Source of the DNA: Rhodobacteraceae bacterium HLUCCA12
GTDB taxonomy: Bacteria; Pseudomonadota; Alphaproteobacteria; Rhodobacterales; Rhodobacteraceae
Reading direction: 5' to 3'
DNA: 64,000 nucleotides
NCBI GenBank assembly: GCA_001314715.1
Contig: LJSV01000014.1
Span: forward strand, 1 to 64,000
The stretch's first letter is position 1. Each line of letters starts with the position of its first letter. A model generated the notes under the pieces. The model had not been told where the DNA came from and did no database searches. It was given only the letters and a program-made list of their open reading frames with translations. Positions 719 to 13,582 of the stretch are shown here, in pieces. A program made the translations under genes and the position numbers.

Positions 719-1990
719 CTATTCGGCGGCGGAACGCACCGGATTTCCGTCGCGCGCAACGTCTTCCAGATGCGCCGCGATCGCCGCGGCAATGGCGCGC
801 TTGTCCTCGACCGGGGTGACGCCGTCGCGGCGCACCAGCAGGGCGCGTTGCTCGGTTCCGCGCGTGTCTTCGCCGCGGGTGGCGACAACAAGGCCGGCAT
901 GGTTCAGCCGCTTGGACGCGACCTCGATCAGTTCCTGTTCGCTGACGTCCTCAAGATACTTGAAGGCCACGCAATGCATGAAAGGGTCGGCCTTGCAGGC
1001 CAAGTCGATCACCTTTTCGGTGGGTTCAAGATCCAGTCGCAGGCTGCTTTGCCCCGAGGCGATCTTGCCCTGCACCGCCTGCTTGGGCCGATAGTCTGCG
1101 ACGCCTGCCGAAAAGATCCCCGCGAACAGCCCATCGCGCGCGCGGGCAACGACTGTGTCGCGGTATTCGTCATAGGTGCGAACGACGGTCAGCGGCAACG
1201 GGGTCGAGGGACGCCAGGCGCCATCGCCCAGAACCAGTTCGGCATCGGCGCCGCGCCAGACCAGTTCCTCGGCGATGCGTGCGCCCAGCCGGCCGCGAAA
1301 TCGGTTGACGATCCGGCGCACCCCGTCGATCGGCACCGGGGTCGGGCCGGCGGTGACCATGATTTTCTTGCCGATCAGGGGCGATCCGCTAAGCGCGCGT
1401 CCCACGGAAATGCAGAGCGACTCGGTGTCGGGCAGGTTGTGCTTGCCGTAGGCATCGCGCGGGGCGATGAACCACACCCCTTGCGCCGACAGTCGGCGCG
1501 CGTTGTCCACCAGTTGGGCATTATGCATGGTGCCGTGCATGGTCGGCGCGACCAGAACCTTGGTGCGGCCCTGTTCCATCCGCCCAAGCGCCGAAATCAG
1601 TGCCGATGTGACCACCGTATCGCCGATACCATGCGCCATCTTGGCAATGGTCGAATGGGTGGCGGGCGCAACCAGGTAGGCGTCAAAAGGCGCATTGTCA
1701 GACAGGTGTTCGGCGGCCCAGGTCAGCCCCGTGACAACCGGCCCCAGCGTCGCCCATTCCAGTGCCTCGCGCGCGACATATCGCAGGGCGTCATCGCTGG
1801 CGAACGCGACCACCGTGGCGCCGTGGCGCCTGAGCCCTCGGGCGATCTGCGGCGTCTTCATCGCCGCGATGCCGCCCGTGACCAGAAGGGCGATGCGCCG
1901 ACCGGCCAGCCGTTGCGAGGCCATCGGCACATCGTGATCGCCCATACCCGAGGGGGTCGGGGCCTTGAAGTCCCAGTCGTATGGCTTCAT
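719..1990 (-). CDS. Divergent CoaBC/Dfp-like flavoprotein, probably not the housekeeping CoaBC
   Basis: This 423-residue protein has the two-domain Dfp layout. The N-terminal HFCD flavoprotein domain carries VTGGIAAMK (37-45), a histidine at about 95 and VAPAT (about 107-111). The C-terminal CoaB-like domain starts near TAGPTPVPIDGVR (about 213-225). Canonical CoaBC makes 4'-phosphopantetheine from phosphopantothenate and cysteine. Here key features differ. The PxMN motif reads PTMH (149-152). The catalytic-cysteine flap (ACGxxGxGRM type) is not visible between the domains. The VGFAAET segment of the synthetase reads VAFKYLED. The start codon overlaps the stop of the transglutaminase-like gene upstream (ATGA), so the two are translationally coupled. 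Inference: a paralog acting on another substrate, possibly a thiol or peptide, since other HFCD proteins (EpiD, MrsD) decarboxylate peptide C-termini. Confidence 0.7.
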   Translation of the reverse strand: MKPYDWDFKAPTPSGMGDHDVPMASQRLAGRRIALLVTGGIAAMKTPQIARGLRRHGATVVAFASDDALRYVAREALEWATLGPVVTGLTWAAEHLSDNAPFDAYLVAPATHSTIAKMAHGIGDTVVTSALISALGRMEQGRTKVLVAPTMHGTMHNAQLVDNARRLSAQGVWFIAPRDAYGKHNLPDTESLCISVGRALSGSPLIGKKIMVTAGPTPVPIDGVRRIVNRFRGRLGARIAEELVWRGADAELVLGDGAWRPSTPLPLTVVRTYDEYRDTVVARARDGLFAGIFSAGVADYRPKQAVQGKIASGQSSLRLDLEPTEKVIDLACKADPFMHCVAFKYLEDVSEQELIEVASKRLNHAGLVVATRGEDTRGTEQRALLVRRDGVTPVEDKRAIAAAIAAHLEDVARDGNPVRSAAE

Positions 1991-3072
1991 GCACGGACCT
2001 CGGTTCCTTCGCGCGCGGCCTGTTCAAGCGCGACCTTGGCCCAATGCCGATGGGTGCCGCGCACCCGGTCCAGGCGGGTATTCAGCGCTTCGAAGTGACG
2101 CGGCAGAAACCGGCTGCGCTTGCCCATCTCTTCGTGAAGATGTGGCTGAACCTCAATGCCGAACATATCCATGCCCTGTGATTCCATGGCCGGGGAATAG
2201 GGTCGCCCCTCACCCAGATAAGCCGGGATCATGTAGGACAATTCGGGCGCGACCTTGAGATAGACGCCAAAGGCCTCGTCGTCATAGGACGCATCGGCGG
2301 CGTGCCAGCGCCCCCCCAGTTTCACGGCGGCGAAATAGTGCTTCACGGTTGGGCGCATCATGGACAACCACGCTTTGGGCATCAGCATGCCAAGGCGCGA
2401 AATCGGCATCGGGATCTCGACGAAACCGGCTTCGAGCCCGACCGCGCGCATCAGCGCGACCTGAAGGTTTGCCTTGGTCGTGCACATGCCCGTTCCGCGC
2501 GCCAGTGTATCCGAGGCGCGTTCCTGCCAGGTGCCGAACCGATAGGGCATCGGCTGAATGAACTTCAAAATGGCCTCGGCGGTGCCCGCCTCGGTGGTGC
2601 GGCGCAGGCGAACCGCGTTGCGCCGGATCTCGGGGTGGTCGATGTCGCACAGCGTTTCCACATCGGGCAGGACCACCGGCGGCGTGGCTGCGGCCTCGGC
2701 CGCGTCGGCGGCGATCAGCGCGTGGGTCATGGCCCGCCGCACCGGGCGATTGGCCGCTGCTGACCATGTGCCGCCGCCCATGTCCAGCGTCCAGACCCGC
2801 GCCGACAGATCGACAGCCTGAAGCCCTTGTTCGCCGCCGGTGAAGTGGTTGCCGGGCCCGTACCAGTTGCGCGGCCCGGCCAGCCGTCCGTCCAGAACGA
2901 CATGGAGCGCAAAGGGGTTGGGGTCATCCAGTGCCTCGCCTGGCGCAAGGTTGCGAACCCGACCCAGCGCGAATGCCGCCGGCGCATCGTCATCAAGATA
3001 AAGACCCAAAGTTGATTCATCGAACTCGTCAAGCAAGTCAGGGTTGATCATGTCGGCAGAGTGCTTTGTCAT
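1987..3072 (-). CDS. Transglutaminase-like cysteine protease-fold protein
   Basis: This is a cytosolic protein of 361 residues (start at 3072; an ATG at 3096 is also possible). The C-terminal half has a transglutaminase-like core: Cys197 in RGTGMCTTKA, His245 in VKHYFAAVK and Asp260 in WHAADAS, in the usual Cys-His-Asp order and spacing. The first 130 residues are unlike anything I recognise and include a Gly/Trp-rich stretch (GPRNWYGPGNHFTGG). There is no signal peptide or membrane segment. Such folds act as proteases, amidases or acyl transferases, and the substrate is unknown here. The gene precedes and overlaps the CoaBC-like gene by an ATGA junction, which strongly suggests a joint role. 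Confidence 0.65.
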   Translation of the reverse strand: MTKHSADMINPDLLDEFDESTLGLYLDDDAPAAFALGRVRNLAPGEALDDPNPFALHVVLDGRLAGPRNWYGPGNHFTGGEQGLQAVDLSARVWTLDMGGGTWSAAANRPVRRAMTHALIAADAAEAAATPPVVLPDVETLCDIDHPEIRRNAVRLRRTTEAGTAEAILKFIQPMPYRFGTWQERASDTLARGTGMCTTKANLQVALMRAVGLEAGFVEIPMPISRLGMLMPKAWLSMMRPTVKHYFAAVKLGGRWHAADASYDDEAFGVYLKVAPELSYMIPAYLGEGRPYSPAMESQGMDMFGIEVQPHLHEEMGKRSRFLPRHFEALNTRLDRVRGTHRHWAKVALEQAAREGTEVRA

Positions 3073-3395
3073 CGTCGTTGCCCCGTGCTTCCGCATTGCC
3101 TCAATAAAGATTCGCCGCCCCGCAAATCCGAGGGCGACGACCGATTCCTGTTAAGAATACCTCTCAACCTCACGATTCAGAAGAGAAATTGGCAGATCAG
3201 GCCATTTTTTTGCCATGCTTTCGCCGGAATCGCCACGATTCCGGGCTTTCCGTTGCGTCCATTATGGCAGTTGTCGTGCGAAAACTGTTGAAACGTGGCA
3301 CACTTGCGGCAATCCTTTTCGGGCGCACCCAGAAAAACAGGCCGTCCGGCGACAGATTCGGCGGGCAGGTCGGGTGCCGGTCTGGGAGGACATGC
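3073..3395. other. Intergenic region between divergent transglutaminase-like and liv operons
   Basis: These 323 bases separate two divergent transcription units and should contain both promoters. The stretch is A/T-richer than its surroundings around 3120-3215. A TGGCAC...GGCA arrangement at 3297-3312 has the -24/-12 spacing of a sigma-54 site but lacks the TT of the -12 box. The longer livH ORF of the track (from 3189) runs through here, but the real livH start is at 3396. I see no small gene. Confidence 0.4.
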
Positions 3396-4271
3396 ATGGA
3401 ATTTCTGCAACTGCTGGTAAGCGGTCTGGCCAACGGCTGCGTCTATGGCCTGGTGGCCCTGGGCTTTGTGCTGATCTACAAGGCGACCGAGGCCGTGAAC
3501 TTCGCGCAGGGCGATTTCATGATGCTGGGGGCCTTTGTCATGCTGGGCCTGGTCAATCCGCAATACATGGGGATCAACTTCTGGCTGGCGGTGCCGCTGG
3601 CGCTGCTGATCATGGGGGCGCTGGGCTATCTGCTGGATATCACCGTGCTGCGGCACATGTTCGGGCAAAGCCAGACCGCCATCGTGATCCTCACGATCGC
3701 GCTGGGTTTCGTGATCCGGTTCATTGCCGGGGTGATCTGGGGGCATGAACCCGTGAACCTGCATTCGCCGCTGGCACTGGGCGACATGCGCGCCTTCGGT
3801 GTGGTTCTCAGCCTGGCGGATATCGCGGTGATCGTGGTGACGGTGATCCTGACCATGCTGTTGTGGCAGTTCTTTCAGCGCACCAAGCTGGGGCTGGCCA
3901 TGCAGGCCTCAAGCCAGAACCAGATGGCGGCCTATTACATGGGGATTCCGGTCAAGCGGGTTCAGGGGGCGATCTGGGCGCTGGCGGCGATCGTGGCCTG
4001 CGTCGCGGGAATCCTTTATGCGTCCAAGGGGTCGCTGGACATTTCCGCGGGCTTCATCGGCATCAAGGCCTTTGCCGCGGCCGTGATCGGGGGGTTTGGC
4101 AGCCTGCCCGGCGCGCTGATGGGCGGGCTGATCGTGGGTGTGATCGAACCCTTCGCCTCGCGCTATCTGCCGCCGGGCTACAGCCAGATCGCGCCCTATG
4201 TGCTGCTGATCCTGGTGCTGATCTTTCGCCCGCACGGCCTGTTCGCGCAGGTGCGCACCAAAAAGGTCTGA
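3396..4271 (+). CDS. livH: Branched-chain amino acid-type ABC transporter permease LivH
   Basis: This is an inner-membrane permease of 291 residues with many hydrophobic segments and the LivH-type N-terminus (LANGCVYGLVALGFVLIYKA) followed by the family motif NFAQGDFMMLG. I moved the start from the track's 3189 to the ATG at 3396. A GGGAGGA ribosome site lies 5 bases ahead of it, and the extension has no homologous character. It heads a six-gene co-directional cluster (permeases, two ATPases, an acyl-CoA ligase and the binding protein) and pairs with LivM to form the channel of a HAAT-family importer. The substrate could be an amino acid or, given the ligase, a carboxylic acid. Confidence 0.93.
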   Translation: MEFLQLLVSGLANGCVYGLVALGFVLIYKATEAVNFAQGDFMMLGAFVMLGLVNPQYMGINFWLAVPLALLIMGALGYLLDITVLRHMFGQSQTAIVILTIALGFVIRFIAGVIWGHEPVNLHSPLALGDMRAFGVVLSLADIAVIVVTVILTMLLWQFFQRTKLGLAMQASSQNQMAAYYMGIPVKRVQGAIWALAAIVACVAGILYASKGSLDISAGFIGIKAFAAAVIGGFGSLPGALMGGLIVGVIEPFASRYLPPGYSQIAPYVLLILVLIFRPHGLFAQVRTKKV

Positions 4272-4274
4272 GTC

Positions 4275-5357
4275 ATGCGATTTCATTTCAAGACGACATA
4301 CGACCAGGATATCCGACTCTTTCCCGATTGGTGGACCTTTGGCCTCTATGCCGCGCTTCTGGCGGTCATGCTGATCCTGCCGTGGCTGATCGACGGGTTC
4401 TTCCTGGGCGAAGTGACCAATGTCCTGATCTGGGCGGTCGCCGGGTTGGGGCTGATGCTGCTGACCGGGCAGACCGGTCAGGTCAGCCTGGGGCATTCGG
4501 CCTTCATGGCGCTGGGCTGCTATCTCTGCGTGATCCTGATGGAGGCGGGCGTGCCCTTCGTGGCGGCGTTCGTGCTGTGCGGAATCTTGACCGGCGTCCT
4601 TGGGGCGATCATCGCGCTTCCGGCCTTGAGGCTGCACGGCGTCTATCTGGCGATCGCGACTCTTGCGCTGGCCATTCTGGCCGACGACCTGATTGTCATC
4701 CTGACGCCCTGGACCGGCGGTGTCGCGGGCAAGTTCACACCAGAGATGACGATCCTGGGGTTCGAGATCAACCGATGGGCCAATCCCGCGTCTTGGTATT
4801 ACCTGGTGCTGATCGTCGCGGTGCTGGTTGCGCTGATCTATCGCAACCTGCTGCGCTCGCCGCTGGGTCGCGCCTTTGCGGCGATCCGCGACAGCGAGAT
4901 TTCGGCGCAGGCAATGGGCGTGGACGTCGCGCACACCAAGGCCGTGGCATTCGGCCTGTCCTGCGCCTTCACCGGGCTGGGTGGCGCGCTGATGGGCCTT
5001 TATGCCGGGGCGTTCAACAACGAGACCTTCAACTTCCTCCTTGCGATCCAGTTGCTGATGATGATCGTCATCGGTGGTCTGGGGTTCATCCACGGGGCGT
5101 TTCTGGGGGCGATCGTCATTGCCTTTCTGCCGCAGGCCCTGTCGATCCTCAGCGACCAGTTCGGCCGCGCCATGAGCATTCCGGGGCTGGAGATGGGCGT
5201 GTTCGGCATGATCCTGATCGCGTTCATCATCCTTGAGCCAATGGGGCTTTACGGGCGGTGGATGAAGATCCGCATCTGGCTTGAGCTGTTTCCGTTTGCC
5301 CGCCGCGACATGTTCCGCCGCCAGAAAAGCTATCTCAAGACGGAGCGGCTGAGATGA
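4275..5357 (+). CDS. livM: Branched-chain amino acid-type ABC transporter permease LivM
   Basis: This 360-residue inner-membrane permease has the LivM signature TGQTGQVSLGHSAFMALG at about residues 66-83 and the cytoplasmic coupling region SPLGRAFAAIRDSEISAQAMG at about 195-215. The N-terminus carries a short soluble leader before the first membrane helix at about residue 23. The gene starts 3 bases after livH and ends overlapping livG by ATGA, so the subunits are co-translated. It is the second half of the HAAT channel. Confidence 0.93.
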   Translation: MRFHFKTTYDQDIRLFPDWWTFGLYAALLAVMLILPWLIDGFFLGEVTNVLIWAVAGLGLMLLTGQTGQVSLGHSAFMALGCYLCVILMEAGVPFVAAFVLCGILTGVLGAIIALPALRLHGVYLAIATLALAILADDLIVILTPWTGGVAGKFTPEMTILGFEINRWANPASWYYLVLIVAVLVALIYRNLLRSPLGRAFAAIRDSEISAQAMGVDVAHTKAVAFGLSCAFTGLGGALMGLYAGAFNNETFNFLLAIQLLMMIVIGGLGFIHGAFLGAIVIAFLPQALSILSDQFGRAMSIPGLEMGVFGMILIAFIILEPMGLYGRWMKIRIWLELFPFARRDMFRRQKSYLKTERLR

Positions 5358-6154
5358 GCCTGCTGGAGCTGAAGAACGTCACCCTGAAGTTCGGCGGTGT
5401 CACCGCGGTCAACGAGTTGAGTCTGTCGGTCGAGGAGGGGCAGGTCTTTGCGCTGGTCGGTCCCAACGGCGCCGGCAAATCGACCGTGTTCAACATGATC
5501 TCGCGCTTCTATACCCCGGTGACCGGCTCGATCGTCTTTGACGGCCGCGACCTGCTGACACTGAAGCCGCACGAGGTTCCGCAACTGGGAATCGCGCGCA
5601 CCTTTCAGAACATCGAGCTGTTCGACCGTGCCACGGTCCTGCAAAACCTTCTGGTGGGCCGCCACCGGCTGCGCAAGACGACGCTTGTCGAAGAGATGTT
5701 TTTCGTCGGTCGCGCGCGTGCGCAGGAGCGCGCGCACCGGCACGCCGTCGAGGAGGTGATCGATTTCCTGGATCTGCAGCCATACCGCAACCAGATGATC
5801 GCGGGTCTTCCCTATGGCGTGCGCAAGGTCGTGGAACTGGCGCGGGCGCTGTCGACGCGGCCGCGCCTTTTGTTGCTGGATGAACCCGCCTCGGGCCTGT
5901 CGGTCGAGGAGACCCAGGACATGCGCTGGTGGATCGATGACATCCGCCGGCAGATGGGGATCACGGTGTTGATGGTCGAGCATGACATGGGACTGGTCAG
6001 CAATGTCTGCGACCGGGTGCTGGCGCTGGACGGGGGCCGAAAGCTGGCCGAGGGCACCCCGGCCGAAGTGCAGTCGCATCCTGCCGTGATCGAGGCCTAT
6101 CTGGGCACCGCTGCGGTTTCAAAGACCGCCAATGCCACCGGAGGCCGGGTATGA
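5354..6154 (+). CDS. livG: HAAT ABC transporter ATP-binding protein LivG
   Basis: This cytoplasmic ATPase of 266 residues has Walker A GPNGAGKST (about 36-44), a LivG-type loop ARTFQNIELF, a degenerate signature region PYGVRKVVELARAL and Walker B LLLDEPASGLS. The C-terminus has the typical LivG ending (AEGTPAEVQSHPAVIEAYLG) plus a short Thr/Ala-rich tail. It overlaps livM by four bases. After its stop comes a 160-base gap holding a two-hairpin repeat element before livF, an unusual break inside an otherwise tight operon. Confidence 0.93.
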   Translation: MSLLELKNVTLKFGGVTAVNELSLSVEEGQVFALVGPNGAGKSTVFNMISRFYTPVTGSIVFDGRDLLTLKPHEVPQLGIARTFQNIELFDRATVLQNLLVGRHRLRKTTLVEEMFFVGRARAQERAHRHAVEEVIDFLDLQPYRNQMIAGLPYGVRKVVELARALSTRPRLLLLDEPASGLSVEETQDMRWWIDDIRRQMGITVLMVEHDMGLVSNVCDRVLALDGGRKLAEGTPAEVQSHPAVIEAYLGTAAVSKTANATGGRV

Positions 6155-6199
6155 CGGTAAGGTGCGCGACGAGCGGCGCGATGCCGCGCAACCGGGGGA

Positions 6200-6262
6200 A
6201 GGGGGGCGCTGCCCCCCTCGGCCTGCGGCCTCACCCCCCGGCGTATTTTCGGCAAGATGAAG
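6200..6262 (+). repeat. Two-hairpin intergenic repeat, copy 1 (livG-livF gap)
   Basis: Hairpin 1 is AGGGGGGC / GCCCCCCT with a 3-base loop. Hairpin 2 is GGCC-TGC-GGCC. The conserved tail CCCCCCGGCGTATTTTCGGC runs on into AAGATGAAG. The same architecture occurs at 49947, 58144 and 62658, always on the plus strand just after a stop codon. This copy lies within an operon, 53 bases before livF, so it cannot be a complete terminator unless livF has its own promoter. The C-run of the tail could also pair with the G-run of hairpin 1, which would give two alternative folds. Confidence 0.75.
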
Positions 6263-6314
6263 GGGCCGGCGCGGCGCCGCATCCGGCCCGGCGGCGCAAG
6301 TCAGGGAGGCGGGC

Positions 6315-7085
6315 ATGAGCGCGCTGCTGGAAGTTCGCAACCTCGAAACCTTTTACGGACCGATCATGGCGATCCGCGGCGTGAGCCTTGAGGTCCGCGA
6401 GGGCCAGGTGGTGACTGTGCTGGGCGCCAATGGCGCGGGCAAGACGACGCTGCTGAAGACGATCTCGGGCATCATGGACCCCGAGAAGGGCAAGATCCTG
6501 TTCGAGGGGCGCGAGATCCAGGGCAAGGAGCCCCACCAGATCGTGCGCCAGGGGATCGTGCAGGTGCCGGAAGGGCGCGAGGTGTTTCCCCTGCTGACGG
6601 TCGCGGAGAACCTGGCGCTTGGGGCCTATACGCGTTCGGATCGAAGCGAGATCGCGCGCGACCGCGATCTGGTGTTCGAGTATTTCCCGATCCTGGCCGA
6701 GCGGCGCGACCAGGAGGCCGGCACACTGTCCGGCGGGCAGCAGCAGATGCTGGCGATCGGGCGTGGCCTGATGCTGCGGCCCAAGATCATGCTGCTGGAT
6801 GAGCCCAGTCTGGGCCTGTCGCCGCTGTTGACGCAAGAGATATTCGCCATTCTCAGGCGGCTGAACAAGGATGTCGGCGTGACCATGATGCTGGTCGAGC
6901 AGAACGCCGCCGTGGCGCTGGACCTGGCCGATCATGGCTATGTGATGGAACTGGGTCGCATCGTCATGTCGGACCGTGCCGAGACGCTGGCGGCGTCCGA
7001 AGATATCCAGAACTTCTATCTTGGCCATGCCAATGAAGGCGCGCGCGGCGAGCGGCGCTGGAAAAAGAGGAAGACATGGCGGTGA
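6315..7085 (+). CDS. livF: HAAT ABC transporter ATP-binding protein LivF
   Basis: This 256-residue ATPase has Walker A GANGAGKTT, the LivF-typical VQVPEGREVFPLLTV, the ABC signature LSGGQQQMLAIGRGLM and Walker B IMLLDEPSLGLSP. It is the second nucleotide-binding subunit of the importer and would heterodimerise with LivG. The C-terminus (after NFYLGHANEG) is basic and ends in KKRKTWR. The gene is followed after 14 bases by the acyl-CoA ligase. Confidence 0.93.
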   Translation: MSALLEVRNLETFYGPIMAIRGVSLEVREGQVVTVLGANGAGKTTLLKTISGIMDPEKGKILFEGREIQGKEPHQIVRQGIVQVPEGREVFPLLTVAENLALGAYTRSDRSEIARDRDLVFEYFPILAERRDQEAGTLSGGQQQMLAIGRGLMLRPKIMLLDEPSLGLSPLLTQEIFAILRRLNKDVGVTMMLVEQNAAVALDLADHGYVMELGRIVMSDRAETLAASEDIQNFYLGHANEGARGERRWKKRKTWR

Positions 7086-7099
7086 CCGGAGGAACAGCC

Positions 7100-8959
7100 A
7101 TGCCACAGGAACAGACCCTCAAGGGCGTGCGCGTCAACGCCGAGCCGGGGCAGCGCCCGCTCAGGATCGACGGCCACGCCACGATCGCAACGCTTTTTCG
7201 GGCCCGCTGCCGCGAAAACGGCGACGCGACCGCGCACCGTGAGAAGGATCTTGGAATCTGGCAGGCCTACAGCTGGTCGGATTACCTGGACCACGCGCGG
7301 CTGATCGGCATGGGGCTGCGGGCCCTGGGCCTCAGGCGCGGCGATGTCGTTTCGATCCTGTCCGAGGACAACAAGGAATGGATGTATTGCGACATGGCGG
7401 CGCAATGCATGGGCGCGGTCTCATCAGGGGTGTATACGACGGATTCGGCAAGCCAGCTGGCCTATCTGGTCGATGACTCGCAGACCCGGTTCCTGTTTGT
7501 CGAGAACGACGAGCAACTGGACAAGTTCCTGGAAGCCGAGGCGCAGATGCCTTCGCTGAGCAAGGTCATCATCTTCGACAGCGAGGGGCTGCACGACTTC
7601 TCGCATCCCAAGTGCATGTTCCTGGACGACCTTTACGCACTGGGCCGCGAGAATGACGATGCGGCCGTGTTCGATGCCGAGATCGACGCGACCCAGCCCG
7701 GCGATGTGGCGATCCTGGTCTATACCTCGGGCACCACGGGTATGCCCAAGGGCACCATGCTGACGCAGGAAAACATCCTCGCCGGAATGGAGGCGAGTCT
7801 CTACGGTTTGCCGTTCTCAAAGGGGGCCGAGCAGCTTTGCTTTCTGCCGCTTTGCCATATCCTGGAACGGATCGTGTCGCTTTACACGCCGCTGGTGGTG
7901 TCATCGACGGTCAATTTCGCCGAAAGCCCGGAAACCGTTTTCGACAACATCCGCGAAGCCTCGCCGCATGGCTTTGTCGCCGTGCCCCGCGTCTGGGAAA
8001 AGGTCTATTCGCGCGTGCTGGTCATGGCGCAAGAGGCGACCTGGCTGGGGCGCAAGGCATTCGGCCTGGCCGTCAGGGCCGGGCAGGCGCGCGCGGCCTA
8101 TACCCTGGCGGGCAAGCCCGTGCCCTTCGGCACGCGGGCCTGGTACAATCTTTGGGATATTCTGGTGTTGCGCAACCTGCGCCGCATGCTGGGGATGGAC
8201 CGGCTGATCCAGGGGCTGACCGGGGCCGCGCCGATCTCGCCGGAATTGCTGAAATGGTATCACGCCATTGGCGTGCCGCTCTATGAAGGGTTTGGCATGT
8301 CGGAAACGGCGGGCGTGGCCACGATCAATCTGCCCGAAGCCAACATGACCGGCTCGGTCGGTCGCCCGGTGCCGGGTGTCGCGGTGCGGATCGGCGCGAG
8401 CGACGAAATCCAGATCAAGGGGCTGAACGTGTTCAAGGGCTATCTGAACAAGCCCGACAAGACCGCCGAAGCCTTTACCGAGGATGGCTGGCTGCGCACC
8501 GGAGACATCGGCCGCATCGACGATGGCTATCTGGTGATCACGGGCCGGATGAAGGACATCATCATCACCGCCGGCGGCAAGAACATCACCCCGGCCGAGA
8601 TCGAAAGCCGGCTGAAGTTCAGTCATTACATCTCGGACGCCGTGGTCATCGGCGATCGGCGCAAATACCTGACCTGCCTGGTGATGATCGACCAGGAGAA
8701 TGTCGAGAAATACGCGCAGGACAGAAAGGTGCCGTTTTCGGATTTCCGCTCGCTCTGCCGCGCGCCCGAGGTTCTGGAGCTGATCCAGAACGAGATCGAC
8801 GCCGTGAACCGCGAATTCGCGCGGGTCGAGCAGATCAAGGATTTCCGGCTGATTGATGTCCTTCTGACCGCCGAGGATGAGGAGCTTACCGCGACAATGA
8901 AGCTCAAGCGTGCGACGGTTGAAGAACGCCACAAGGCGTTGATTGATGATATGTATTGA
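7100..8959 (+). CDS. AMP-forming long-chain or aromatic acyl-CoA ligase
   Basis: This adenylate-forming enzyme of 619 residues activates a carboxylic acid with ATP and CoA. Visible motifs are the P-loop YTSGTTGMPKGTM, the substrate/AMP motif YEGFGMSET, the hinge TGDIGRIDDGYL and the late lysine region GRMKDIIITAGGKNI. Length and motifs match the long-chain FadD/FAA-type subgroup. I chose the ATG at 7100 (GGAGGA 7 bases ahead) over the track's 7076. It lies inside the liv cluster between livF and the binding protein, so the imported compound is probably a carboxylate made into a CoA thioester on entry. The chain length or aromatic nature of the substrate cannot be read from the sequence. Confidence 0.9.
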   Translation: MPQEQTLKGVRVNAEPGQRPLRIDGHATIATLFRARCRENGDATAHREKDLGIWQAYSWSDYLDHARLIGMGLRALGLRRGDVVSILSEDNKEWMYCDMAAQCMGAVSSGVYTTDSASQLAYLVDDSQTRFLFVENDEQLDKFLEAEAQMPSLSKVIIFDSEGLHDFSHPKCMFLDDLYALGRENDDAAVFDAEIDATQPGDVAILVYTSGTTGMPKGTMLTQENILAGMEASLYGLPFSKGAEQLCFLPLCHILERIVSLYTPLVVSSTVNFAESPETVFDNIREASPHGFVAVPRVWEKVYSRVLVMAQEATWLGRKAFGLAVRAGQARAAYTLAGKPVPFGTRAWYNLWDILVLRNLRRMLGMDRLIQGLTGAAPISPELLKWYHAIGVPLYEGFGMSETAGVATINLPEANMTGSVGRPVPGVAVRIGASDEIQIKGLNVFKGYLNKPDKTAEAFTEDGWLRTGDIGRIDDGYLVITGRMKDIIITAGGKNITPAEIESRLKFSHYISDAVVIGDRRKYLTCLVMIDQENVEKYAQDRKVPFSDFRSLCRAPEVLELIQNEIDAVNREFARVEQIKDFRLIDVLLTAEDEELTATMKLKRATVEERHKALIDDMY

Positions 8960-8993
8960 ACAGGGCCATGTGGCCCATGATGGGGAGGAAACC

Positions 8994-10160
8994 ATGAAAC
9001 ATCTGAAGACCCTTCTTGCCGCAACCGCCGCCGCCGCGCTGGCGGCCGGCGCCCATGCCCAGACCCGGGGCGTCAGCGACGATGAAATCGTGATCGGGGG
9101 CGCGCACGACCTGTCGGGCGTGTTCGCCGCTGTCAGCACGCCGGCGGTCAATGGGGCGAACCTGTATTTCGACCAGATCAACGAGGATGGCGGCGTGCAT
9201 GGGCGCAGCATTCGCTACATCGTCGAGGACCACGGCTATCAGTTGCCGCGCGCGACCCAGGCGTTCAACAAGCTGATCGAGCGCGACGAGGTCTTTGCCA
9301 TGTTGCTGAACCTGGGGACGCCGCACAATCTGGCGCATTATTCGCTGATGGAGCGGCGTGGCGTGCCCAACGTCAACCCACTGACTGCCGCGCGCGACAT
9401 CCTGCCCGATCCGCCGGGCATGAACTTTTCGGCGTTTTCCAGCTATTACGACCAGATGATCGCGGGCGTGCGGTATCTGCACGAGGAAAGCGGCGCGACG
9501 AAGGTGTGTTCGATGTATTTGCCGACCGAATTCGGCGAAGAGATCATGCAGGGCACGCGCGACGCGGCCGAGATGCTGGATCTGGACTATGTCGCCGAGA
9601 CGACCCATCGCCCGGACGAGCAGGACTTTGTCGGCGCGCTCAGCCGGTTGCGGTCGGAAGGCTGCGAAATCATCACCCAGGCCGTGGGCGTGCGCGCGGG
9701 CATCACCATCGTCGGTACGGCCAAGCGTCTGGGCTGGGATGACGTGATGTTCCTGACCTCTTCGGCGGGCTTTCTCGAGGCGGTTGCCGAGGTTCCAGGC
9801 GGCGTGACCGACGGCCTCTATGCCGCGGCGGGCTGGGTCGATCTGGCATCGCGTGCCGATCAGGAGGCGGCGGCCGAGTTCATGGAGGCCTACGAGGAAG
9901 CCTATGACCAGACCGCCGGCGGGTTCGCCATGCTGGGCTACACAGCCGCGCGCCAGCTTCACATGGCGCTTGAGGCAGCGGGGCCGGACCTGACCACCGA
10001 AGGCTTCGTCGAAGGCATGTACACGATCGACTATGTCGACGAGCTTCTGGACGTCGAGATCAACTATTCCGCCGACAATCATCAGGGCGGGAATATCGTT
10101 ACCATTTCGGTCGTGAACGATGGCGCGTGGGAGCTGATCTCGCGCGAGGAACTGGAATAA
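8994..10160 (+). CDS. Periplasmic substrate-binding protein of the HAAT transporter (LivK-like)
   Basis: This 388-residue protein has a clear signal peptide (MKHLKTLLAATAAAALAAGAHA) and a mature start QTRGVSDDEIVIGG typical of peripl_BP_6 proteins. The start at 8994 follows a GGGGAGGA site; the track's upstream start at 8943 overlaps the ligase and lacks support. The protein delivers substrate to LivHM in the periplasm. It diverges from classic leucine-binding proteins (NLGTPHNLAHYSLMERRGVP in the ligand lobe), as do HAAT proteins for aromatic or aliphatic acids. It is the last gene of the cluster and is followed by a terminator. Confidence 0.9.
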   Translation: MKHLKTLLAATAAAALAAGAHAQTRGVSDDEIVIGGAHDLSGVFAAVSTPAVNGANLYFDQINEDGGVHGRSIRYIVEDHGYQLPRATQAFNKLIERDEVFAMLLNLGTPHNLAHYSLMERRGVPNVNPLTAARDILPDPPGMNFSAFSSYYDQMIAGVRYLHEESGATKVCSMYLPTEFGEEIMQGTRDAAEMLDLDYVAETTHRPDEQDFVGALSRLRSEGCEIITQAVGVRAGITIVGTAKRLGWDDVMFLTSSAGFLEAVAEVPGGVTDGLYAAAGWVDLASRADQEAAAEFMEAYEEAYDQTAGGFAMLGYTAARQLHMALEAAGPDLTTEGFVEGMYTIDYVDELLDVEINYSADNHQGGNIVTISVVNDGAWELISREELE

Positions 10161-10934: not shown

Positions 10935-11837
10935 TCAGGCCCAGGGGCCCGTGTGCCGAGACCGCCCGGCGCGCGGAATGCTGGTCGGCTGCATCGTGCC
11001 CATCTCCTCGGCGAGTTTTTCCAGCGCGGCGATACGGTTCTCGGTCGCCGGGTGTGTCGAGAACAGCTTGTCGCGCTTGAAGGCGTGCAGCGGGTTGATG
11101 ATGAACATATGTGCCGTCGCGGGATTGCGTTCGGCGGATTCGTTGTCGATGCGACTGGCAGCGCCCTGAATGCGCCGCAGCGCTGATGCCAGCCACATCG
11201 GGTTGCCGCAGATCTCCGCGCCAACGCGATCGGCCTCGTATTCGCGCGAGCGCGAGATCGCCATCTGAACCAGCGCCGCGGCAAGCGGGGCGAGGATCAT
11301 CATCGCAATCAGCGCGACCACGTTGCCGCCGTTGCGCCCGCGTCCGAACAGAAGCGCAAAATTGGCCAGCATCGAAATGGCACCCGCGAAGGTGGCCGTG
11401 ATCGTCATGATCAGGGTGTCGTAATTGCGGATATGGGCCAGTTCATGCGCCATCACCGCCGCAACCTCTTCGTGTGACAAACGCTGCAACAGGCCGGTGG
11501 TCGCGGCGACGGCTGCCTTGTCGGGGTTGCGCCCGGTCGCAAAGGCGTTGGGCTGATCTTCGTCAATGATATAGACGGCCGGCGCGGGCATGTCGGCATC
11601 GCGGGCCAGCCGGATAACCATCTCTTGCAGTTCCGGGGCGGTATGTGCATCGACAGGCCGCGCATTGTGCATGCGCAGCACCATCTTGTCCGAGTTCCAC
11701 CATGCCATCGCGTTCATCACCGCCGCGATCACCAAGGCGATCAACGCGCCAGCCGATCCGCCGATCGCGTAGCCGGCGCCCAGGAAAAGCGCGGTCATTG
11801 CCGCCAGCAGGATCGCCGTCTTGAGGTAGCCGGTCAT
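10935..11837 (-). CDS. htpX: Membrane-bound zinc metalloprotease HtpX
   Basis: This inner-membrane M48 protease of about 300 residues degrades misfolded membrane proteins. Two N-terminal membrane helices are followed by [18 protein letters not shown] and the zinc motif [10 protein letters not shown], then two more hydrophobic segments and the third zinc-ligand region [12 protein letters not shown]. The ATG at 11837 has a strong GGAGGG site; the track's upstream ATG at 11858 has none. It is monocistronic. The 3' end converges with the RutB-like gene with only 10 bases between stops. Confidence 0.92.
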
Positions 11838-11913
11838 CACGCCCTCCGTTTCCGACATGCGCCGTGAATATGTGTGTGCGGGGGCTGCGCCGCAAGAGCA
11901 TGTCGGCAGAGCG

Positions 11914-12903
11914 TCAGGCCAGCGCTTCGGCCCTGAACATGGCCTTGACGCTGCTTTGGGGGCGGGCGCCCAGATGGCCGATCACCTCGGCCGCGGCAAT
12001 ACAGCCCATGCGCCCGGCGGTTTCGAGCGAATGATCCATCACCAGCCCATAGAGGAACCCCGCCGCGAACTGGTCGCCTGCCCCGGTGGCGTCGACCGGC
12101 GTGATGCGGTTGACAGGTGCTTCGACCCTGTGGCCGTCATGGATCAGCAAGACGGACTCGCCCGAACGCGTACAGACAATGGTGCGGCAATCGGCGGTGG
12201 CCTGATCCAGCGCATCCTGAAGATCGTTTGCCTGGTAGAGCGATACCCATTCCTGCTGATTGCCGATCACGAAATCCATCTCGTCGGCGACAAGTCGGCG
12301 GAAGTCGGCGCGATGGCGGTCAACGCAGAACGGATCGGAAAGCGCGATCCCCACGCGCCCGCCCGCGCCGCGGCATGCCCGCGCGGCCTTCAGGAAGGCG
12401 TCCTTGCCCTTGTCCTTGTCGAACAGATATCCTTCGAGGAACAGAAGCTCGGTATCGGCCATGACCGACTCGTCGACATCGTCCGGGCCCAGTTCGGCCG
12501 AGATGCCCAGATAGGTGTTCATCGACCGTTCGCCATCGGGCGTGACAAGGATCATCGAACGCGAGGTGGGCAACTCGCCCCCCTTCACGGGTGCGTTGAC
12601 AAAGGCGGTTCCGGCCTTCTCGGTATCATCGGCATAAAAGCGGCCCAGCGCGTCGTCGCTGACGCGGCCGACGAATGCCGTTCGCAACCCCAAGGCGCCG
12701 ATCCCGGCGATGGTATTGGCAACCGAGCCGCCGGACGCCTGCTCATGCGCGGTCATCGCGTCATACAACGTCTCGGCGCGGTCGCGTTCGATAAGCTGCA
12801 TGATACCCTTATGTATGTCCATCCGTTCCAGAAAGTGATCGTCAACGGTCGAGATGACATCGACAACGGCATTGCCGATGCCGGCAACCTGATATTTCTT
12901 CAT
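11914..12903 (-). CDS. PfkB-family adenosine/sugar kinase
   Basis: This 329-residue ribokinase-like enzyme has the N-terminal [12 protein letters not shown], the GG switch [12 protein letters not shown] at about 58-69 and the anion-hole/catalytic motif [14 protein letters not shown] at about 275-288. The proportions and the C-terminal [12 protein letters not shown] match the alphaproteobacterial adenosine kinase group, which phosphorylates adenosine to AMP. Another nucleoside or sugar cannot be excluded from sequence alone. The start codon overlaps the nth stop by ATGA, which implies co-translation. Confidence 0.85.
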
Positions 12904-13544
12904 AGGGTCTTTTCCTCAAATGGGCAGAGATCGCGGATGAGACAGGCTGCGCAGGCCGGTTTGCGGGCCTTGCAGACATAGCGGCCATGCAAGATCAGCC
13001 AGTGATGCGCGTGCAGCTGGTATTCGGCGGGCACATTGTCTTCGATGGCGCGCTCGACGGCAGCGACATCCTTGCCCGGGCAGATGCCGGTCCGGTTGCC
13101 GACGCGAAAGATATGTGTATCCACCGCCTGCGCCGGCAGCCGCCACCACATGTTCAGAACCACGTTCGCGGTCTTGCGGCCCACCCCTGGCAGCGATTGC
13201 AGCGCCGCGCGGCTGGATGGCACCTCGCCGTCGAACTGGTCGACCAGGATCTGGCTGAGCTTGATGACGTTTCTGGCCTTGTTGCGGTAAAGGCCGATCG
13301 TGCGGATATGTTCGATCAGGCCCTCTTCGCCAAGGGCAAGCATCTTTTCAGGTGAATCCGCCACCGCGAACAACTTGCGCGTGGCACGGTTGACGCCGAC
13401 ATCGGTCGCTTGTGCAGACAGCGCCACCGCGACCAGCAGGGTAAAGGCGTTGACATGTTCCAGCTCGCCCTTGGGTTCGGGCTCGGCCGCGTGAAAGCGG
13501 CGAAATACCTCGCGGATGGTCAGATAATCGAGTTGGCGGGCCAT
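12900..13544 (-). CDS. nth: Endonuclease III, base-excision repair glycosylase/AP lyase
   Basis: This DNA repair enzyme has about 214 residues, matching the E. coli length. It carries the helix-hairpin-helix LPGVGRKTANVVL with the catalytic Lys, the VDTHIFRVGNR segment with the catalytic Asp, and a C-terminal [4Fe-4S] site with spacing C-X6-C-X2-C-X5-C (CKARKPACAACLIRDLC). It removes oxidised pyrimidines. I use the ATG at 13544 rather than 13580, which adds a non-homologous leader. It overlaps the kinase gene downstream by four bases. Confidence 0.93.
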   Translation of the reverse strand: MARQLDYLTIREVFRRFHAAEPEPKGELEHVNAFTLLVAVALSAQATDVGVNRATRKLFAVADSPEKMLALGEEGLIEHIRTIGLYRNKARNVIKLSQILVDQFDGEVPSSRAALQSLPGVGRKTANVVLNMWWRLPAQAVDTHIFRVGNRTGICPGKDVAAVERAIEDNVPAEYQLHAHHWLILHGRYVCKARKPACAACLIRDLCPFEEKTL

Positions 13545-13582
13545 GGTCTTCTCTTGCACCGGGGCACAGGCGGGGCGCAAGC

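Follow-up and report, generated by a model that had tools for sequence, protein, structure and literature searches.

The stretch of DNA analyzed here, referred to as the window, comprises 64,000 nucleotides at the start of contig C10 of Rhodobacteraceae bacterium HLUCCA12, whose genome measures 3.7 Mb and is 99.9% complete. It contains a pair of genes on the reverse strand. The first, at 1987..3072 (−), encodes a transglutaminase-like protein of 361 residues (P0002), assigned by the Pfam Transglut_core domain and by an AF2 model, and the second, at 719..1990 (−), encodes a CoaBC-like flavoprotein of 423 residues (P0001) composed of the Pfam Flavoprotein and DFP domains. Stop and start codons of the two genes overlap in an ATGA at 1987..1990 (−), as the original prediction for this locus had noted. 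The same 4-nt overlap occurs in the loci of Pararhodobacter, the genus to which the source genome belongs, and in four loci of a second genus, g221, and a 12-nt gap takes its place in five other g221 loci. Immediately downstream of the two genes, where the contig begins, a short protein with a VPEID-CTERM sorting domain is encoded at 218–472 (−) (TIGR04161, 50.6 bits).

The flavoprotein shares its two-domain architecture and predicted fold with CoaBC/Dfp (TIGR00521), and its predicted structure is closest to that of a CoaBC (PDB 6TGV). It scores 71.9 bits with the Flavoprotein family (PF02441) and 93.7 bits with DFP, and the catalytic His, Asn, Asp, and first Lys of CoaBC are kept. Its divergence from canonical CoaBC, already proposed from the sequence, is nevertheless clear, since it reaches 189 bits against the equivalog cut-off of 219.7. 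Two further family members also stay below this cut-off (199 and 198 bits). Identity to CoaBC/Dfp proteins is about 27–30%, with 30% to the canonical CoaBC of the same genome and 28% to E. coli Dfp in the alignment. Further differences from CoaBC/Dfp are a shortened flap and lid, the paired gene, and the position of P0001 as a second copy beside a canonical one. The protein also begins with an extension of 27 residues (1910..1990 (−), DWDF.APTPS.MGDHDVP), which is near-invariant in 20 sequences and missing from canonical CoaBC in the alignment.

The HFCD, or CoaC-like, half covers residues 28–200 (1391..1909 (−)), as delimited by alignments. It carries the active-site histidine His95 (1706–1708 (−)), invariant in the aligned family, and an equally invariant cysteine, Cys193, after the flap (1412–1414 (−)). 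The predicted departures from CoaBC were borne out by the alignment with E. coli Dfp. Residues 149–152 read PTMH (1535–1546 (−)), so that PTMHGTMH stands in place of the phosphopantothenoylcysteine (PPC) decarboxylase motif PXMNXXMW; the flap, shortened by six residues relative to E. coli Dfp, has no cysteine where the redox-active one is found; and the GFAAET segment of the synthetase part reads AFKYLE. All three changes are constant across the family.

The CoaB-like half comprises residues 205–410 (761..1378 (−)), as indicated by alignments and model scores. Of its site residues, Arg225, Asn229, Asp299, and Lys309 are kept, the last three being invariant. The K-X-K-K nucleotide loop, a contact site for the triphosphate in MsmCoaB (PMC7794376), reads KIAS here and KIAS or KIVS across the family, and SSG is replaced by FRG. 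The best models for this half are those of the streptococcal-type stand-alone CoaB (TIGR02114 and PRK06732), with 92 and 82 bits, compared with 80.6 bits for the CoaBC model. These scores lie far under the respective cut-offs (265 and 217 bits), and the half differs from the streptococcal protein in being fused to an HFCD half. The streptococcal CoaB likewise has no K-X-K-K, and in the alignment its structure (PDB 2GK4) has the same KI.S and FK.L segments and the same short lid. P0001 is unusual in three respects: it has lost K-X-K-K, it reads FRG instead of SSG, and it carries the conserved extension at its N terminus.

The partner scores 33.1 bits with Transglut_core (cut-off 23), and its AF2 model has a pLDDT of 89.4. 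The core, at residues 159–261 (2290..2598 (−)), combines the fold and the Cys-His-Asp triad of transglutaminase-like cysteine proteases (PF01841), one of which, PDB 3ISR, was matched by the model in Foldseek; by sequence, the partner has no match in the PDB. The triad had been described as intact, and its residues Cys197 (2482–2484), His245 (2338–2340), and Asp260 (2293–2295, all (−)) are indeed invariant in 18 of 18 aligned sequences. Unlike these proteases, the partner carries an N-terminal beta roll resembling a cyclic nucleotide-binding domain (CNBD; approximately residues 10–130, 2683..3045 (−)), and its full-length relatives are confined to two genera. In Foldseek, the predicted model of this region matches many CNBDs, the best small match being the CNBD of a Pycsar effector (8jsj, E 5.3e-4), whereas no sequence method matches it to CRP or Pfam families. 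The motif of the phosphate-binding cassette (FGE...RS helix) is missing from the partner alignment, and in the AF2 model no helix lies between strands 76–78 and 91–97, where the cassette would be expected. Both alignment and model therefore make the usual binding of cyclic nucleotides unlikely. A role as a defence or Pycsar-like effector was considered and rejected: besides the missing cassette, PADLOC gave no match and no cyclase was seen nearby.

The two genes are inherited together. Both are present in 18 of 19 Pararhodobacter genomes and both are missing from the remaining one, which is 82% complete. They are adjacent and co-oriented in all 18 carriers, one of which is cut by a contig end so that only the start of the flavoprotein gene is left. 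Among 298 genomes of the family, one per genus, full-length versions are restricted to Pararhodobacter and g221, and samples of the phylum (399 genomes) and the class (289) contain no further genus with either gene. In g221, the flavoprotein is encoded in 10 of 37 genomes; the partner lies directly upstream in nine, and the tenth copy is at a contig edge. In both genes dN is well below dS, so the pair is under purifying selection, with the flavoprotein as the more slowly evolving member (mean column identity 85%, against 66% for the partner). Adjacency in two genera together with this selection means that the pair is more than a chance arrangement. Close relatives on plasmids or viruses were looked for and none was found. 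A search of the open-access literature, with most subscription journals outside its scope, likewise turned up no description of a system of this composition, in agreement with what the original prediction had assumed.

Most bacteria make 4′-phosphopantetheine with one fused CoaBC. The genome studied here has such an enzyme as well, and the question of a second, canonical copy raised together with the prediction is thereby answered. Its gene adjoins dut (L064:2422–3621 (−), contig C19), as in E. coli, scores 387 bits with TIGR00521, and reads GHIQL, PAMN, an ACGEHGPGR flap, KMKK, and GFAAET. The canonical coaBC is intact in Pararhodobacter, and genomes that do not carry the pair have one full coaBC.

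A different situation is found in part of the g221 carriers. In four of them (G238, G735, G736, and G737), a count of DFP domains showed that the ORF with the canonical CoaB domain is only 234 residues long. Genome-wide, these four and two others (G759 and G760) have one PF02441 match each, which is the ortholog of the gene in the window. A stand-alone PF02441 protein of about 200 residues found in some relatives, presumably UbiX, is missing from the six genomes too. The four loci that were read (L087 to L090) belong to the order rpoH, ChaN-like gene, coaBC, dut; a clean loss of the CoaC part has left a stand-alone coaB between the ChaN-like gene and dut, at the very place where sister genomes have the full coaBC. 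The remaining CoaB starts from an ATG of its own, located at the domain boundary and preceded by a purine-rich stretch that resembles a ribosome-binding site. With canonical CoaC as a query, tblastn gave no match in these four loci, whereas in other genomes the equivalent loci matched at 76–89% identity. On the ortholog tree the six genomes group in a single clade (support 0.77), so the CoaC loss probably happened once. Within the clade, both halves of the ortholog are constrained (dN/dS 0.050 and 0.060). By gene content, then, the window-type gene is the only PF02441 gene of six genomes, in four of which the deletion of canonical CoaC was read directly, and it would supply the step in cells with no other CoaC.

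In Bacillus subtilis, coaBC is essential unless pantethine is supplied (PMC11487621). Given this requirement and the retention of CoaB, the simplest explanation is that the window-type HFCD half makes phosphopantetheine in the clade. A non-homologous decarboxylase or pantetheine salvage may provide it instead, but the retained CoaB speaks against salvage. Since canonical CoaB was kept beside the paralog, the CoaB-like half of the latter probably has a role of its own, outside that of canonical CoaB.

The altered motifs had been taken as a pointer away from CoA chemistry, a reading that loses ground on comparison with known enzymes. The CoaBC of Mycobacterium smegmatis (PDB 6TGV) reads PAMHTEMW and has no flap cysteine, so that it shares the PxMH and the cysteine-free flap of P0001, and it is treated as the CoaBC of that organism (PMC7794376). 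PTMH and the missing cysteine consequently do not exclude a decarboxylase, and the changed CoaB segment resembles the streptococcal stand-alone protein. The motifs thus speak less strongly for a new reaction than a first look suggests. What does argue against a PPC decarboxylase is the plant enzyme (PMC9604783): it depends on the flap Cys as well as on the Asn of PXMN, and P0001 has neither. In fungi, the diverged PPC decarboxylase paralogs Hal3/Vhs3/Cab3 include CoaC paralogs without the flap Cys and PXMN that still take part in PPC decarboxylation (PMC9604783). These, however, work by sharing active-site residues with Cab3, whereas no Cys-bearing CoaC is left as a partner in the CoaC-lost clade.

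The explanation we favor, with a probability of roughly 0.6, is that P0001 is a diverged second CoaBC whose N-terminal half is a working PPC decarboxylase, and that together with its partner it forms an accessory or conditional module of the CoA branch. The genes with their domains, their co-inheritance, the selection acting on them, and the fact that one clade of carriers has deleted the canonical CoaC domain are established. The HFCD half would be an FMN-dependent enzyme whose active site follows the mycobacterial pattern, in which the His is kept, PxMH replaces PxMN, and the flap Cys is absent. Its decarboxylase activity is probable, and PPC is its likely substrate, since the family's CoaC half is the sole one found where the canonical domain was deleted. 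The C-terminal half is expected to have the fold of a CoaB-type acyl-nucleotide ligase with the acid-binding residues kept and the nucleotide and lid site changed; it would do a job that canonical CoaB leaves uncovered, on a substrate about which one can only speculate. The co-translated partner, with its Cys-His-Asp triad and degenerate cyclic nucleotide-type roll, may act on small molecules of the same class by cutting or forming an amide, candidates being pantothenoyl or pantetheine amides; alternatively, it may regulate the flavoprotein. Either assignment, an amide of this class or the flavoprotein itself as its substrate, is a guess based on the pairing. The original interpretation is supported in part; for the CoaB-like half and the partner, the chemistry may be new. 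Because canonical CoaBC is intact in the source genome, the role of the pair there may differ from that in the CoaC-lost clade.

A more far-reaching version, which we consider unlikely, sees an undescribed CoA-branch system in which the CoaB-like half and the partner build or break a different (phospho)pantothenate amide, and the HFCD half decarboxylates that compound as well as PPC. The product would be a new pantetheine-like thiol or part of a salvage route, and the dual substrate range would have allowed the cell to lose its own CoaC domain. In line with the original prediction, the pair may also belong to a separate small-molecule pathway, with the flavoprotein ligating and oxidatively decarboxylating another thiol or amino-acid amide that the partner cuts or makes; promiscuity would then account for its taking over PPC decarboxylation in one clade. 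The intact coaBC of Pararhodobacter, the altered nucleotide-site motifs, the constraint on a CoaB half beside canonical CoaB, and the obligate pairing with an amide-active fold all fit such a pathway, but the CoaC-lost clade implies that the N-terminal half accepts PPC, and the two genomic contexts have no biosynthetic gene in common besides the pair. We regard this pathway as doubtful.

Decidedly improbable is a plain redundant isozyme, in which both halves perform the normal CoA steps and the partner is an unrelated or regulatory passenger. The conserved architecture and the catalytic His, Asn, Asp, and Lys would suit it, as would the streptococcal CoaB that also does without K-X-K-K; yet canonical CoaB would then hardly have been kept in the CoaC-lost clade, where the window-type gene offers a CoaB half, and the partner accompanies the flavoprotein gene wherever it occurs, in two contexts. 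The EpiD-like modification of peptides raised in the original prediction, namely decarboxylation of a C-terminal cysteine of a RiPP precursor with the partner as leader peptidase, found no support and is very improbable. A putative flavoprotein decarboxylase (6jls) is the second-best match of the HFCD half in a sequence search of the PDB, but the model of the RiPP decarboxylase CypD gives 15.8 bits (cut-off 215), no precursor-like small ORF near the pair is common to both genera, and the flank matches listed come from downstream of one htpX-linked locus. RiPP cysteine decarboxylases are also not known to carry a fused CoaB half.

Taken together, the finding is real and unusual, and is best read as a second CoaBC that has diverged and is inherited along with a transglutaminase-like protein. 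In one lineage, the CoaC domain of the fused enzyme is gone, and its step appears to have passed to a diverged paralog whose active site is non-standard. This clade amounts to a natural test of the residues needed in a PPC decarboxylase, and it offers a tractable handle on the unexplained partner, which accompanies the flavoprotein in every checkable genome.

The surroundings of the pair differ between the genera. In Pararhodobacter, an operon for a liv-type transporter and an acyl-CoA ligase runs divergently from it; in the window, the liv-type ABC transporter, the acyl-CoA ligase, and a solute-binding protein are encoded at 3189–10160 (+). A functional link to this operon was rejected, as the neighbor is constant in Pararhodobacter but missing in g221, three carriers of which are without a close homolog of the acyl-CoA ligase. 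In g221, serC, serA, and a metallophosphatase gene lie upstream of the pair and usually htpX downstream. Genes for htpX, a pfkB-type kinase, and nth are found near the pair in both genera (window 10935–13580 (−); L063 5189–8413), and in the window this group lies across the liv operon from the pair; the position beside htpX may therefore be ancestral. As for regulation, a CtrA box (TTAA-N7-TTAA) upstream of the pair was dismissed, being present in only two loci. A near-palindrome, AACC-TAT-GGTT, with one variable base, lies about 71–76 nt upstream of the start codon of the partner; kept in all nine g221 loci tested (L063 and L077–L084), it may serve as an operator or as part of a promoter.
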